Below, one piece after another: positions 3,417 to 29,240 of a stretch of DNA of 37,232 nt; position 1 is the stretch's first letter, and each line of letters starts with the position of its first letter. Location: IMG/VR virus record IMGVR_UViG_3300021960_008373, positions 1-37,232 of that record, one strand, 5' to 3'. The position numbers and the translations under genes were made by a program. Below the pieces are notes generated by a model. It searched no databases and had not been told where the DNA came from. It was given only the letters and a program-made list of their open reading frames with translations. Origin of the DNA: a virus.

Positions 3417-4360
3417 AAATATTAATTACAGGAGGGCAAGGTTTTATAGGAGCAGCTATAGCAGGTGTTCTGCAAGTGGAGCACTCAATTACTATTATGG
3501 ATAACTGGTCTGAAAGCTATCCTGGGTATGCAGCTATACATAGAGGTAAAGACGGACTAAAACAAGCCTCCGCCTTAGAAATAAAACATAGAAAACAAGC
3601 TTCAATTTATAGAGAAGAGTTGATAAAAGGAATCCCTATTGTTAAAGGATGGACTTGGCAAAAAGAATTAGAAACAATAGATGAGCCAGATTTAATTATT
3701 AATTGCGGAAGTTTATCTGAGGCAATACTTTCTCAATATTTAAAAGACTTTACTTATTGTTCTATAGTAAAAGGAATTGAAAATATTAAAAAAACCTTCA
3801 AATGCCCTGTACTACATTTTTCAAGTTCTATGTCTTATGGATCATGGGAAGGAGCTATAAAAGAAGACGGAGAGCAAAACCCTGTAGACTGGTACGGATC
3901 ATGCAAAAAAGATAGTGAAACTTTTATAGATCAAAATGATATTATAGTACGGCCCATGCATGTATATGGTTTTGGGGATGGTAAGTTTCCAATGCCCATG
4001 AACATTGAAAGACAATACCAAAATGGCCGCCCTGTTACTGTAGAAGAAGCAGATTGTATTTATATTAAGGACCTTACCGTAGTAATTAAAAAAATAGTTG
4101 ATAAATGGATTCCAGGAGTGTATAATTTAAGTTCTGGATATTTACGGTCTAAAGACATAATCAAAGAAGAATCAAAAAACATTCTTGGTTTTGAAATAGA
4201 AACAATCAATAAATCTGGGCCTACAGGCAAAAATAGAGGAACATTAGATTCTTCTAAATTAGCACAAGTTTATAACTGGAATTCTCAATATAAAAATTAT
4301 AAGGAGACAATCATAGATTACTTTAATGAGTATAGGATACGAAATGAAAATAATAGTTAG
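3413..4360 (+). CDS. NAD-dependent epimerase/dehydratase (extended SDR)
   Basis: I chose the ATG at 3413 (ATGA overlap with the previous stop) because MKILITGGQGFIG begins the Rossmann fold directly; an upstream in-frame ATG at 3371 would add 14 residues of no clear value. GGQGFIG is the glycine-rich NAD-binding motif, and WYGSCK supplies the catalytic Tyr-xxx-Lys of SDR enzymes, with the SSSMSYG stretch holding the third catalytic position. Length (315 residues) fits sugar-nucleotide epimerases/dehydratases. Target sugar unknown. It follows the radical SAM trio without a gap and its end overlaps the bS21 gene by 17 bases. Confidence 0.85.
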   Translation: MKILITGGQGFIGAAIAGVLQVEHSITIMDNWSESYPGYAAIHRGKDGLKQASALEIKHRKQASIYREELIKGIPIVKGWTWQKELETIDEPDLIINCGSLSEAILSQYLKDFTYCSIVKGIENIKKTFKCPVLHFSSSMSYGSWEGAIKEDGEQNPVDWYGSCKKDSETFIDQNDIIVRPMHVYGFGDGKFPMPMNIERQYQNGRPVTVEEADCIYIKDLTVVIKKIVDKWIPGVYNLSSGYLRSKDIIKEESKNILGFEIETINKSGPTGKNRGTLDSSKLAQVYNWNSQYKNYKETIIDYFNEYRIRNENNS

Positions 4361-4673
4361 AAATAACGACCCGCTAAAAGCTTTTAAACTTCTTAATAGA
4401 AAATTACATCAAGATAATGTTTTTATTGACTTAAAAGAGCGACAGTTTTATAAAACTAAAGGTGAAAAACGCAGAGAGAAGAGGAAAAGAGCAGTAGCGA
4501 GGCAAAAAAAAGAACAAGCCAAAAGAGAGCTTATTTTACAAAAATTAGAAAACCAAGTAATACGAGGGAATAATGGTAGAAGAAACAACAACAGAAAACC
4601 AAATACAAATCGAGTGGGTTCCTCTAACTCAAGCAGGAATACTCAAGGTAAAGCTCCCAGAGCAAACAGTTAG
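4344..4673 (+). CDS. rpsU: Ribosomal protein bS21 homologue with a basic C-terminal tail
   Basis: From the ATG at 4344, residues 1-55 follow the bS21 pattern: a short strand (MKIIVRNNDPLKAFKLL), then KLHQDNVFIDLKERQFYKTKGEKRREKRKRA, matching the conserved REFYEKPxxxRKRKK region. An upstream in-frame ATG at 4326 adds six residues and is less likely. bS21 sits on the 30S platform next to the anti-Shine-Dalgarno end of 16S rRNA and affects initiation; phage copies are known in some marine and very large phages and are thought to bias host ribosomes. The last 50 residues are an Arg/Asn-rich, probably disordered tail, longer than a usual bS21, and overlap the next gene in another frame for 101 bases. 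Confidence 0.85.
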   Translation: MKIIVRNNDPLKAFKLLNRKLHQDNVFIDLKERQFYKTKGEKRREKRKRAVARQKKEQAKRELILQKLENQVIRGNNGRRNNNRKPNTNRVGSSNSSRNTQGKAPRANS

Positions 4674-5330: not shown

Positions 5331-5585
5331 ATGAAAGCGTATAAAGGTTATTTTAAAAAGAAGAACGGTGATAAAAGAGAAATGGTATTCTCTAGAATCA
5401 AAGATTTACCTAACGGTTTTGTTGCTGCCCGTATTGTCGGAGCAGGATCAGAAAAAACATACCCAGAAGGTATGGAACTTGTATGGGACTTAGAGGCAGA
5501 TGATTTTAGAATCTTTAATTATAAAACTGCTGATAGTGATATACAAGAACTAGATGTAGACGGAAGCTATTACCTAAAATTTTAA
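5331..5585 (+). CDS. Small conserved-looking protein of unknown function
   Basis: The protein has 84 residues and starts after a strong AAAGGAG site 6 bases upstream. It is charged, with no membrane segment or cysteine, and looks like a compact beta-rich fold (KAYKGYFKKKNGDKREMVF...). I do not recognise a family. It is the first gene after the dense radical SAM/bS21 operon and has its own hairpin-promoter region, so it may be expressed at a different time and at a high level. It ends about 20 bases before purS. Confidence 0.75.
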   Translation: MKAYKGYFKKKNGDKREMVFSRIKDLPNGFVAARIVGAGSEKTYPEGMELVWDLEADDFRIFNYKTADSDIQELDVDGSYYLKF

Positions 5586-5606
5586 AAATTAAAAAAGGGG
5601 TTGACA

Positions 5607-5840
5607 GTGACCGAAAAATCATATATTATAACTATAATGCTTAAACGTGGAATACTGGATAACGCAGGTAAAGCTACTACTAAAGCATTAAATAGTTTAG
5701 GTTTTAAAGAAGTTTTGGATGTTCGTATAGGTAAGACTATTACCCTAAAAACAGCCCAAGACCCAGAACGAATAGCCAAAGCATTAGTTAATGATGTTAT
5801 GGAAGATTACCAAATAGAGTGTCTTGATGACGCGGACTGA
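5607..5840 (+). CDS. purS: PurS subunit of phosphoribosylformylglycinamidine synthase
   Basis: The sequence IITIMLKRGILDNAGKATTKALNSLGF followed by VLDVRIGKTITL matches the small PurS family closely, and the length (77-79 residues) is normal. PurS bridges PurL and PurQ in the ATP-dependent amidation of FGAR in purine synthesis. I prefer the GTG at 5607 because AAGGGG (5595-5600) is then 6 bases away; the in-frame TTG at 5601 would touch the site. No purL or purQ is seen here, so it probably works with host subunits. Cyanophages are known to carry purS. The stop codon abuts the tmRNA acceptor piece. Confidence 0.88.
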   Translation: MTEKSYIITIMLKRGILDNAGKATTKALNSLGFKEVLDVRIGKTITLKTAQDPERIAKALVNDVMEDYQIECLDDAD

Positions 5841-6083
5841 AAACTGAACTGGACCGGGGGGCAGTACCCCGCGCCTCCACCAATATATAGAGTTTCATAT
5901 GGGGGCGAACTAGGATCGACAGGCAGATAATAGGAAAGTCGAGAGACAGGTGTGCAAACGACCTTAACCGTAAGAAAACAACTAAATGCAAACGACAATT
6001 TCGTAGCATCTGAGGAGTATGCACTAGCTGCATAATCTTTCTGGGGTTCGGTAGGTTCCTAGCAACAGAATACCTACTATTTT
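5841..6083 (+). ncRNA. ssrA: Circularly permuted (two-piece) tmRNA
   Basis: The acceptor piece comes first: a T-arm-like CGGGG/CCCCG stem (about 5856-5871) runs into CGCCTCC (5872-5878), then A and an encoded CCA (5880-5882). An 18-base spacer (5883-5900) leads to GGGGGCG (5901-5907), the 5' end of a normal tmRNA. The two 7-base strands pair with a G.U at position 3, the alanine identity element. The tag frame starts at GCA 5988 and reads ANDNFVASEEYALAA then TAA (6033-6035), ending in the ALAA protease signal. This order is the permuted form found in Alphaproteobacteria. Outer ends are approximate. A GTAGGT/ACCTAC stem (6051-6077) near the 3' end may be the last helix or a terminator. Confidence 0.93.
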
Positions 6084-6092
6084 GAGGGGTAA

Positions 6093-6488
6093 ATGTTACA
6101 CAAAATTTTAAAATTTCCTACTGTATCTGATGACAGAGGGAACCTAACTTATATCAATAATCTTGAACAAATTCCTTTTGAAATTAAAAGAATATTTACT
6201 GTTGATAGCGTCCCTGCCGGGTCTGTCAGAGGCGGTCACGCACATCACCAGCTTCAAGAAGTATTAATTCCAATTTATGGAAGATTTATCGCTTATTTAT
6301 CAGACGGAAAAACATCAGAAGAAGTAGAGATGGTTAATCCTAGAACTGGTTTATTATTATATCCCCATATTTGGAGAGAAATAAAAGGATATACAAAAGG
6401 AGCAATTTGTCTATCTCTTTGCTCTATGACTTTTGACGAGTCTGACTATATTCACACATGGGAAGAATTTAAAAAAATATATGTCTAA
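6093..6488 (+). CDS. FdtA/QdtA-like dTDP-4-keto-6-deoxyhexose 3,4-ketoisomerase (cupin)
   Basis: The 131-residue cupin has the family's opening (FPTVSDDRGNLTYINN, then PFEIKRIFTVDSVPAGSVRGGHAHHQLQE), with the conserved His cluster after RGGHAH used in isomerisation, and ends with a typical TFDESDYIHTWEEF. The enzyme moves the keto group of dTDP-4-keto-6-deoxyglucose from C4 to C3, preparing it for transamination. A GAGGGG site lies at 6084-6089. The gene directly follows the tmRNA and overlaps the 4,6-dehydratase gene by 8 bases. FdtA and QdtA differ in product stereochemistry, which I cannot read from sequence alone. Confidence 0.88.
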   Translation: MLHKILKFPTVSDDRGNLTYINNLEQIPFEIKRIFTVDSVPAGSVRGGHAHHQLQEVLIPIYGRFIAYLSDGKTSEEVEMVNPRTGLLLYPHIWREIKGYTKGAICLSLCSMTFDESDYIHTWEEFKKIYV

Positions 6489-7425
6489 AACTGTATTAGT
6501 AACTGGGGGATTAGGATTTATTGGTAAACATTTTGTAAGTGAGCTGTTATATAAAGGTCATAACGTAATTAATGTTGACTGTTACACTTATGCAGCAGAT
6601 AGACATGCTTCAAAATTATTTAAACAAAAGCCAAACTATATAGAATCAAGAGAATATATTCACAATTTAGGATATTTACCTATATGTGACTATGTAGTAC
6701 ATTTTGCAGCTGAGTCCCATGTAGATAATTCTATTGCTGATAGCTCTAAATTTATTCATAGTAATATTACGGGTACGCACCATCTGTTAGAATTATTAAG
6801 ACGTATGCCAGAAAGTCATCGTCCCCATTTAATTCATATTAGCACAGATGAAGTATATGGAGATTCTGAGCCTGATCAACAGTTTCTAGAGACTGATATA
6901 TTAAACCCATCAAGCCCCTATTCAGCCTCAAAAGCTGCTGCAGAACACTTAGTTACCTCTTATGCTAGAACATATGGCATATCTTACAATATAGTAAGAA
7001 TGACAAATTGTTTTGGCAATGATCAATACCCAGAAAAACTTATTCCAACTATCTGTTTAAATATTAAAAAAGATAAACCTATTCCTATTCATGGAACTGG
7101 GGAGTATATAAGAACTTGGTTATGGGTAGAAGACGCTGTAAAAGCAATCATAGCAGTAATAAATTCAGCAACTCCTTATGAAACATATAATGTTTCAGGG
7201 GATTGGAGGTTTTCTGTTATGGATATTGTAAAGTTTTTCATAGACGTTGCTGGAAAAGGCGAAACTAAAAGAGTTAAAAATAGACTAGGACAAGATTTAG
7301 ATTATCATATTAACGACGATAAAATCAGAAAAGAAGTGGGTTGGGCGCCTACAAAAGGCCCCGCTGAATTAGCTTCTATAATTTATAATAATTTTAATCC
7401 GCAAAGGTTTATAACAAAAGGATGA
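6481..7425 (+). CDS. rmlB: dTDP-glucose 4,6-dehydratase (RmlB-like)
   Basis: I start it at ATG 6481 (MSKTVLVTGGLGFIG), 8 bases inside the previous gene. The 314-residue protein has the NAD-binding TGGLGFIG, HFAAESHVDNSI, HISTDEVYGD with the catalytic Asp-Glu pair of 4,6-dehydratases, and SPYSASKAAAEH with the Tyr-xxx-Lys. These features separate RmlB from ordinary epimerases. It makes dTDP-4-keto-6-deoxyglucose, the substrate of the FdtA-like enzyme encoded just before it. It overlaps the next gene by 4 bases (ATGA). Confidence 0.9.
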   Translation: MSKTVLVTGGLGFIGKHFVSELLYKGHNVINVDCYTYAADRHASKLFKQKPNYIESREYIHNLGYLPICDYVVHFAAESHVDNSIADSSKFIHSNITGTHHLLELLRRMPESHRPHLIHISTDEVYGDSEPDQQFLETDILNPSSPYSASKAAAEHLVTSYARTYGISYNIVRMTNCFGNDQYPEKLIPTICLNIKKDKPIPIHGTGEYIRTWLWVEDAVKAIIAVINSATPYETYNVSGDWRFSVMDIVKFFIDVAGKGETKRVKNRLGQDLDYHINDDKIRKEVGWAPTKGPAELASIIYNNFNPQRFITKG

Positions 7426-27169: not shown

Positions 27170-27613
27170 ATGAAGCTTGTAGACACAACAGATGAAAGAT
27201 TATATCAAAAGTGTAATCATGTAGAAAAACCACAATCTTTAAGCATAAAAATGCTCAGAGATAAAATGGCGAAGCTAATGAAAAGAGAAGGTGGTATAGG
27301 ATTAGCGTCTACTCAAGTAGGAAAATCAGAAGCCTTGTTTATTATGTATAAAGGTGGAAGAATTATTACTTGTATTAACCCCTCTATATCTTGGCAGTCA
27401 GACGATGTAGTAGAAATGAAAGAAGGCTGCGTTAGTTTTCCTAATATATTTATAAAACTATGGCGACCTTCTAAAATTATTGCAGAATATACTGATATTA
27501 GGGGAAAAAGAATAACTGAAAAAATGGAAGGTATAGAAGCAAGGTGTTACCAACACGAGCTTGATCATTTAAGTGGTATCACTTTTATTCATAGACAAGA
27601 TGAGCAAAAATAA
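27170..27613 (+). CDS. def: Peptide deformylase
   Basis: The 147-residue protein has all three active-site motifs: GIGLASTQVG (42-51), EGCVS (85-89) with metal ligand C87, and QHELDH (128-133) with ligands H129 and H133 and catalytic E130. It removes the formyl group from new proteins. It is shorter than bacterial enzymes (about 168 residues), losing the C-terminal helix, as in other phage deformylases. The ribosome-binding site is weak, suggesting coupling to the polymerase gene, which ends 6 bases upstream. Confidence 0.95.
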   Translation: MKLVDTTDERLYQKCNHVEKPQSLSIKMLRDKMAKLMKREGGIGLASTQVGKSEALFIMYKGGRIITCINPSISWQSDDVVEMKEGCVSFPNIFIKLWRPSKIIAEYTDIRGKRITEKMEGIEARCYQHELDHLSGITFIHRQDEQK

Positions 27614-27950: not shown

Positions 27951-28452
27951 GTTTTCTAATTTAAATTTCCCTATTTTCGGATTAAAAACTGTTGTTGAGT
28001 TTAATTATACCCTTAATGAGATATTTACTACAATAAACGGTCAAAAATATATTGTAGATGATAAATCTATCAATAATACTTCATATTTAAGTAGATTAAT
28101 AGAATTAGATTCTAGAAAAAAATATCAAAGATTAAAATTTGATTATACTATTAGAAATATGGAAGAATTATTAAAATCTGATTGTAAAGTAGGAATTGAT
28201 GATCTAGGAAACATTAGATATTTTAATGTAAAAGAACAATTTAAATATTCTGAGCGAAAGATAATCAAAAATAGAAATAAACACTTTTGGTTCGATAAAA
28301 TAAGCTACCCTTTTACGTTAGATTTAGAAAATATAGAAAAAATTGCTGAAGATTACAAATATTATTATGGTAAAATGACATATATTAATAGAAATTGGTA
28401 TTTTTTAGGATTTTGTGATGAAAAGAGTAATAAAGATAAGATATGGATATAA
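27943..28452 (+). CDS. Protein of unknown function between thioesterase and PyrB
   Basis: ATG 27943 overlaps the thioesterase stop by 8 bases; a start at 27862 would need 81 more overlapping bases. The 169-residue protein is Lys/Asn/Tyr-rich, with beta-like strands (TVVEFNYTLNEIFTTINGQKYIVDD) and a tail with aromatic residues (YKYYYGKMTYINRNWYFLGF). No recognisable motif. The gene is very AT-rich and lies in an operon with metabolic genes. Confidence 0.65.
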   Translation: MSKFSNLNFPIFGLKTVVEFNYTLNEIFTTINGQKYIVDDKSINNTSYLSRLIELDSRKKYQRLKFDYTIRNMEELLKSDCKVGIDDLGNIRYFNVKEQFKYSERKIIKNRNKHFWFDKISYPFTLDLENIEKIAEDYKYYYGKMTYINRNWYFLGFCDEKSNKDKIWI

Positions 28453-29240
28453 ATCATTTAGTAACTTTAGATAACTGGAATATAGAATCATTAAATAGGT
28501 TTTTTAAAACAGTAGATGAATTTAAAAAAGGTAGATTTACGCCTTATGTGAATAAAATAATTACAAATCTATTTTATGAACCTTCCACTAGAACTAGTTC
28601 TAGTTTTTTTGCAGCCGCCAAGATGGTAGGCGCAGATGTTATCTCTATTAACAATGTTAGCTATTCAAGTGTTTCAAAAGGAGAGACTCTTGAGGATACC
28701 ATTAGAACTTTAGCTTGTTATAGTCAAATTATTGTACTCAGACACTCAGAAATTGGTGCAGCGAAAAGGGCAGCTAGTATTTCTCCCGTTCCAATTATAA
28801 ATGCTGGTGACGGGGCAGGAGAACATCCAACACAAACACTATTAGATCTATATACTATATATAAAAACTTTGGAAAAATAGAAGATTTAAAAGTCGCTTT
28901 CGTCGGAGATAATAAAAATAGTAGAACAGTACATTCTTTAGGTAAAGTTTTAGAAAAATGTGCTGAAGTTTATTATTGCGATGATTATTCTGTTGATAAT
29001 ATACCAGAATCAGATATATATTACTTAACAAGAGTGCAAAAAGAGCGAGGAAGCTCTGGTAGTTATGAATTAACAAAAGAACATATTGATAAATTACCAG
29101 AAAAGTGTATAGTTATGCATCCATTTCCTAGAAATGAAGAAATTCCTCAATGGTTTGATAGCGATCCAAGAGCAAAATACTTTGAGCAAATGTCAAATGG
29201 GCTTTATGTCAGAATGGCAATACTCTATGATAGGTTATAA
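28443..29240 (+). CDS. pyrB: Aspartate carbamoyltransferase catalytic chain
   Basis: The 265-residue protein has every active-site element: FYEPSTRT (48-51, carbamoyl phosphate binding), VSKGETL (K79), LRHSEIGAA (R100, H101), GEHPTQTLLDL (H128 to Q131), NSRTVHSL (R161), YLTRVQKER (R197) and MHPFPR (226-230). It condenses carbamoyl phosphate and aspartate, the first committed pyrimidine step. It is about 45 residues shorter than E. coli PyrB, the loss lying mainly in the aspartate domain around residues 175-190. No pyrI is seen. The likely result is pyrimidine supply for phage DNA free of host feedback control. Confidence 0.92.
   Translation: MDINHLVTLDNWNIESLNRFFKTVDEFKKGRFTPYVNKIITNLFYEPSTRTSSSFFAAAKMVGADVISINNVSYSSVSKGETLEDTIRTLACYSQIIVLRHSEIGAAKRAASISPVPIINAGDGAGEHPTQTLLDLYTIYKNFGKIEDLKVAFVGDNKNSRTVHSLGKVLEKCAEVYYCDDYSVDNIPESDIYYLTRVQKERGSSGSYELTKEHIDKLPEKCIVMHPFPRNEEIPQWFDSDPRAKYFEQMSNGLYVRMAILYDRL

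Follow-up and report, generated by a model that had tools for sequence, protein, structure and literature searches.

Does a virus record from IMG/VR encode a working tmRNA of its own, and what lies in the intervening sequence (IVS) that separates the two halves of such genes in phages? The record, IMGVR_UViG_3300021960_008373, was analysed as one stretch of 37,232 nucleotides, here called the window, which may be an incomplete genome. A preliminary description had read positions 5841–6083 as a phage-encoded, circularly permuted tmRNA, to be checked by a covariance search with the alpha-tmRNA model. That search placed alpha_tmRNA (RF01849) at 5784–6080 with 115.4 bits, well over its cut-off of 50, and the tmRNA_permuted model (RF04321) matched at 5820–6035 with 116.9 bits against a cut-off of 47. 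These are independent covariance models, with gathering scores taken as cut-offs, and both were matched over their full length at this locus; the outer P2 helix was only a partial fit to RF01849. As judged from sequence and modeled structure, positions 5835–6083 are thereby confirmed as an intact, circularly permuted tmRNA gene of alpha type.

The piece order is permuted, with an acceptor piece (5835–5882, plus strand, as for all parts of this gene and its two neighbors) upstream of a coding piece (5901–6083) and an 18-nt IVS (5883–5900) between them. The acceptor piece is defined by the two Rfam matches, by T-stem pairing in viral relatives, and by near-identity in the closest relative, and its 5' end is inferred. 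It comprises the 5' strand of P2 (CUG-AA-CUG, 5844–5851), the T arm (CGGGG/GGCAGUA/CCCCG, 5855–5871), the acceptor 3' strand CGCCUCC (5872–5878), and A73 with an encoded CCA (5879–5882, CCA at 5880–5882). The gene had initially been started at 5841, whereas the P2 strand and sequence conserved to about 5835 put the acceptor start upstream. The IVS contains no ORF and no extended helix and is predicted to be absent from the mature tmRNA. Within the coding piece lie the acceptor 5' strand GGGGGCG (5901–5907), a D-loop-like AACUAGGAUCGA, the P2 3' strand CAG-G-CAG (5920–5926), a GNRA-tetraloop hairpin (GGUGU-GCAA-AC-G-ACC, 5949–5963), a pseudoknot region, the tag frame (5988–6035), and a 3'-terminal hairpin (GGUAGGU...ACCUAC, 6050–6077) whose loop, CCUAGCAACAGAA, is conserved in alpha tmRNA. 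Folding of the whole precursor gave an ordinary MFE (z -0.9), which may be expected because the RNA is pseudoknotted.

Pairing of 5901–5907 with 5872–5878 yields the G3:U70 pair that had been proposed, and together with discriminator A73 and CCA it completes the alanine identity set in the window sequence. The tag frame runs from a GCA resume codon at 5988 through ANDNFVASEEYALAA to a TAA stop, and it ends, as first described, in the C-terminal hydrophobic degron ALAA. Two copies of GCAAACGAC are present, the first beginning at 5954 rather than at 5953 as originally given, and the second, at 5988, was correctly taken to be the true resume site. We rejected 5954 as a second resume site, as it lies 34 nt from 5988 and out of frame with it, inside the tetraloop hairpin. 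Seventeen related hairpins with GCAA or GGAA loops match this hairpin, and the pair closing its loop is U:A in the window and C:G in the relatives L124 and L125.

ARAGORN made no call for window positions 5841–6083, nor for the relatives L125, L067, and L445. Because this finder overlooks the window gene and several of its relatives, counts of phage two-piece tmRNAs made with it are probably too low, and the window adds a well-supported case that a standard tool overlooks.

The surroundings of the gene are those of a phage genome. A purS-like gene (PF02700, 5601–5840) precedes it, with a stop that overlaps the 5' part of the acceptor piece, and the next gene downstream encodes an FdtA/WxcM-like sugar isomerase (PF05523, 6093–6488). 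The window also codes for a DnaB-type helicase, a PolA-type polymerase, SSB, and an SbcD-like nuclease, and its translation-related genes beside the tmRNA encode a bS21 homologue (4326–4673) and peptide deformylase (27170–27613). Nucleotide-synthesis genes are represented by an aspartate/ornithine carbamoyltransferase-like gene (28443–29240) and the PurS-like gene. The first 25 kb of the window gave no near DNA match to any phage record. The closest relative, IMGVR_UViG_3300023180_005138 (117 kb; L124, L126, and G002 in our numbering), is about 81% identical to the window and syntenic with it. Because this relative carries terminase, portal, major tail, tail chaperone, minor tail, and endolysin genes, we assign the tmRNA gene to a phage, in line with the preliminary description. 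In the relative, this tmRNA again lies upstream of the FdtA gene, at the same locus and in the same gene order, and its tag (ANDNFVASENYALAA) differs from that of the window by one residue. The mature halves are nearly identical (97.5% over the tRNA-like core) and the IVS is entirely different. Elsewhere in the relative, we observed curlin-repeat-like proteins and a lipoprotein (phrog_20175) that we liken to CsgG by eye only (L696:3083–6361); these curlin-like genes recall reports of curli genes in Melnitz and in pelagimyophages.

Across viral relatives, the RNA structure has been kept while its sequence has changed. We compared 247 distinct tRNA-like domains, including that of the window, with the IVS excised; the viral contigs were found by their acceptor-stem signature, and the search pattern set the acceptor stem and left the T-stem and P2 pairs free. 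All five T-stem pairs were formed in 243 of 243 viral relatives, with two to four pair types at four of the five positions and four Watson-Crick types at the two outer pairs. The P2 pair 5850:5921 was formed in 246 of 247 viral genes, again with four Watson-Crick types, compared with 114 expected when partners were re-dealt. This pattern indicates that tmRNA structure is under selection in the viral genes.

Gene integrity, the covarying structure, the intact tag, and a conserved copy at the corresponding locus of a related phage directly support the reading of the window gene as a functional phage-encoded permuted tmRNA, to which we give a probability of about 0.85. From established tmRNA biology, we infer the steps of cleavage, charging, delivery, resumption, and degradation. 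One precursor would be transcribed together with the surrounding operon, and host tRNA-processing enzymes would cut after CCA (5882) and before G5901, discarding the 18-nt IVS. The two-piece processing that had been anticipated is thus to be expected, as for every known gene of permuted form, and the pieces would be held together by the acceptor stem and P2 pairing. Host AlaRS would charge the RNA, host SmpB would bring it to ribosomes stuck on broken mRNAs, and translation would resume at GCA 5988 and append a tag that should act as an ordinary ClpXP-type degron. The likely gain for the phage is that ribosomes continue to be recycled in late infection, at a time when mRNAs are being cleaved and the host's own tmRNA may run short.

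A search for SmpB (PF01668) found nothing in either the window or the 117-kb relative, so neither of these records, both possibly incomplete, holds tmRNA and SmpB as a self-sufficient trans-translation module. Rescue therefore most likely uses host SmpB, along with host AlaRS and ClpXP, which suggests that such phages lean on the host protein for ribosome rescue. A special role in retagging proteins had also been raised; the tag gives it no support, and we prefer simple rescue and ribosome recycling because the tag end is an ordinary ALAA degron.

The RNA could also act against the host system rather than in its place, as a decoy that titrates SmpB or AlaRS and blocks host trans-translation in the manner of the DS6A RNA, which consists of a tRNA-like domain only. 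RNA of this mycobacteriophage type is reported to inhibit endogenous tmRNA (PMC11915505; PMC4131195), but a decoy would have no need of a tag frame, a resume site, or hairpins in the coding piece, and all of these are intact and conserved between the window and L124; we consider this explanation unlikely. Slightly less probable again is a neutral passenger, taken from a host and functionless in the phage. Acquisition of ssrA fragments by phages does occur, and the authors of the Melnitz study discuss capture via prophages (PMC9004378). A passenger would not account for mature halves that are better conserved than the genome average next to a wholly different IVS, for structure-preserving covariation across the 247 viral genes, or for the at least 120 viral contigs in each IVS-length bin scanned (IVS core 10–40, 51–81, 124–154, and 155–185). 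A functional tmRNA remains our preferred reading.

The entirely different IVS of the closest relative raises the second part of the question. The L124 IVS is 165 nt long and contains a ribosome site and a 42-aa membrane-protein ORF, MDWFTADLIHAMNETSWVDGIGTIVVLLGAYFVYKWINNKFK (L124:4482–4666). The cultured Pelagibacter phage Mosig has a homologue that matches across all 42 residues at 71% identity (E 9e-13); there it is a conventionally placed, annotated gene, Mosig_00134, with baseplate genes around it. L124 carries this gene nowhere but in its tmRNA, and the rest of the window gave no credible match to it (tblastn E 3.1). In a second contig, L648, the IVS reaches 499 nt and encloses a 120-aa ORF; phage Melnitz has a homologue of it as an ordinary gene at about 69065 (E 9e-22, with 53% identity across 83 residues). 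Melnitz itself (L002) carries ssrA at about 45984–46436, and an unannotated, SD-led ORF (MFKWLSKTRLVVITRDYFRERNRKADAKIPKYLSG...) begins inside its 142-nt IVS, the IVS ORF MFKWLSKTRLVVITRDYF... running from 46096 onward. Further loci with nested genes are numerous among contigs L124–L248, L368–L487, and L639–L686. The window, with its 18-nt IVS and no ORF, is an empty-slot member of this nested-gene group, which includes L124, Melnitz, and many viral contigs.

We estimated how common such genes are from two samples. In one drawn blind to IVS length (75 viral permuted tmRNA genes, IVS 9–499 nt), at least 13 of the 75 IVSs contained an SD-led ORF of 25–120 aa. In the other, drawn by length bin, SD-led ORFs of at least 25 aa were present in 98 of 278 viral IVSs (at least 50 nt long), compared with control counts of 27 after shuffling and 11 on the reverse strand. 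Crude omega for five nested families was 0.12 (50 sequences), 0.18, 0.18, 0.18, and 0.17, and in other frames of the same DNA it was about 0.7–1.9 in the four families tested; the pairs are nearest neighbors rather than phylogenetic contrasts and p-values are indicative only, while the contrast between frames is plain. One other-frame comparison gave no ratio, as it contained no synonymous change.

Chance frames in a structured spacer could produce some ORFs of this kind. Most ORFs in the short and middle IVS classes are indeed short and random-looking, and in one family (family A) an upstream ORF led by AAGGAG shows no protein selection (omega 1.55). Chance does not explain why purifying selection is specific to one frame, why annotated, free-standing homologues of two nested ORFs occur in the isolates Mosig and Melnitz, or the excess of SD-led ORFs over both controls, and we regard it as very unlikely to be the general explanation. 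On these sequence comparisons, we hold it highly probable that the nested IVS genes are real.

In family A (e.g. L135, L146, and L208; IVS positions 1–85), a conserved AAAGGAG and the unselected ORF precede the selected membrane ORF. The upstream ORF ('DEEPLSTRG') was rejected as a selected protein on its omega in favor of the membrane (TM) ORF. The AAAGGAG segment pairs with the 3' end of the membrane ORF and is possibly a leader or masking element. One genome with a family A ORF in its IVS (L187/G391) also encodes a T4-type capsid gene; this capsid family (PF07068) was found in 3 of the 19 viral records tried, the others being fragments or other phage types.

The ends of the IVS usually pair into an 8–15-bp helix stacked on the acceptor stem. 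By our computation of end pairing in Python, a helix of at least 8 bp was present in 88 of 113 distinct long IVSs, compared with 1.5% of shuffled sequences and 16.7% of re-dealt ends. As the paired ends lie beside the acceptor stem, the nested gene would sit in the loop of one long hairpin. Its own SD falls within the helix in some families (e.g. L445 and L661) and just outside it in Melnitz and L124, and several nested ORFs extend over the cleavage site into the coding piece. With the SD in the helix or the ORF running past the cleavage site, maturation should alter the fate of the nested message. We tentatively propose, at a little under even odds, that phage permuted tmRNA genes offer in their IVS a reusable slot for genes of small proteins, in several cases membrane proteins, and that translation of these genes is coupled to tmRNA maturation. 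The coupling is speculative; if it holds, processing would either unmask the nested message or make it non-stop.

Nested IVS genes are not strictly viral, yet they look rare outside phages. Among 385 genomes of the same class as an alphaproteobacterial MAG, 359 matched the permuted-tmRNA model, and of the matches listed nearly all were short. Most long-IVS matches in the genome_contigs set were discarded as chance, 104 of 114 having no tmRNA 5' half. One alphaproteobacterial MAG lineage of MED766 type (L256, L337, and L351; also L690) has a 49-aa membrane ORF in the IVS, broken by an in-frame stop in L337. In L256, it lies on a chromosome-like contig, near genes that we take from their translations, by eye, to be fumC, thyA, and an sspB-like gene. 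Three Rickettsia genomes (L263, L282, and L318) have long, palindromic repeat-like tmRNA IVSs with no ORFs.

The permuted form had been taken to point to an alphaproteobacterial host, but it does not establish one: Melnitz has an alpha-type two-piece tmRNA, yet its host belongs to the gammaproteobacterial OM43 clade (PMC9004378). An alpha-type tmRNA is thus no proof of an alphaproteobacterial host. A back-translated tag pattern with a fixed GCAAACGA start, which sets the scope of the search, was absent from 84,980 species genomes.

The window gene itself is of a known kind with published phage precedents. Phage two-piece tmRNAs have been described in Melnitz (2022) and other aquatic phages (PMC9004378), and the 2025 tmRNA database includes 79 phage sequences (PMC11915505). 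Like the gene of Methylophilales phage Melnitz EXVC044M (PMC9004378), the window gene is phage-encoded, permuted, and of alpha type, with CCA, G3:U70, and a tag ending in ALAA (that of Melnitz is ANDNYVPVDYALAA). The two differ in the IVS, which in the window is reduced to 18 nt without the SD-led ORF, and in the glutamine riboswitch that the Melnitz paper reports, a family with no match at window positions 5500–6500. With the alphaproteobacterial two-piece tmRNA (RF01849; Caulobacter type), the window shares the piece order, the tRNA-like domain, the 3' hairpin, GGCGAA.UAGGAUCGAC, and the resume sequence GCA AAC GA. Unlike that tmRNA, it is phage-borne and has a tag whose pattern occurred in none of the species genomes searched.

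The tmRNA genes of Bxz1-type mycobacteriophages and Bacillus phage G are, like the window gene, carried in phage genomes, and they have the standard one-piece gene order. Both are named as phage tmRNAs on the tmRNA Website (PMC4131195).

Annotation treats the IVS as discarded, and in many marine phages it appears to hold strongly selected protein genes. As one of these is in the cultured phage Melnitz, expression, processing, and function are directly testable. In the open-access literature, we found no earlier report of protein genes within the IVS of a permuted tmRNA, which is no proof of novelty. Two IVS inserts are noted in the 2025 database paper, a tRNA gene in one IVS and a repeat in another (PMC11915505), and the only reported nested gene that we found is the tRNA-Ala within the permuted-tmRNA IVS of GCA-2688965 (PMC11915505). 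That nested gene encodes an RNA and comes from a single, nominally archaeal genome, whereas the phage relatives described here carry protein genes.
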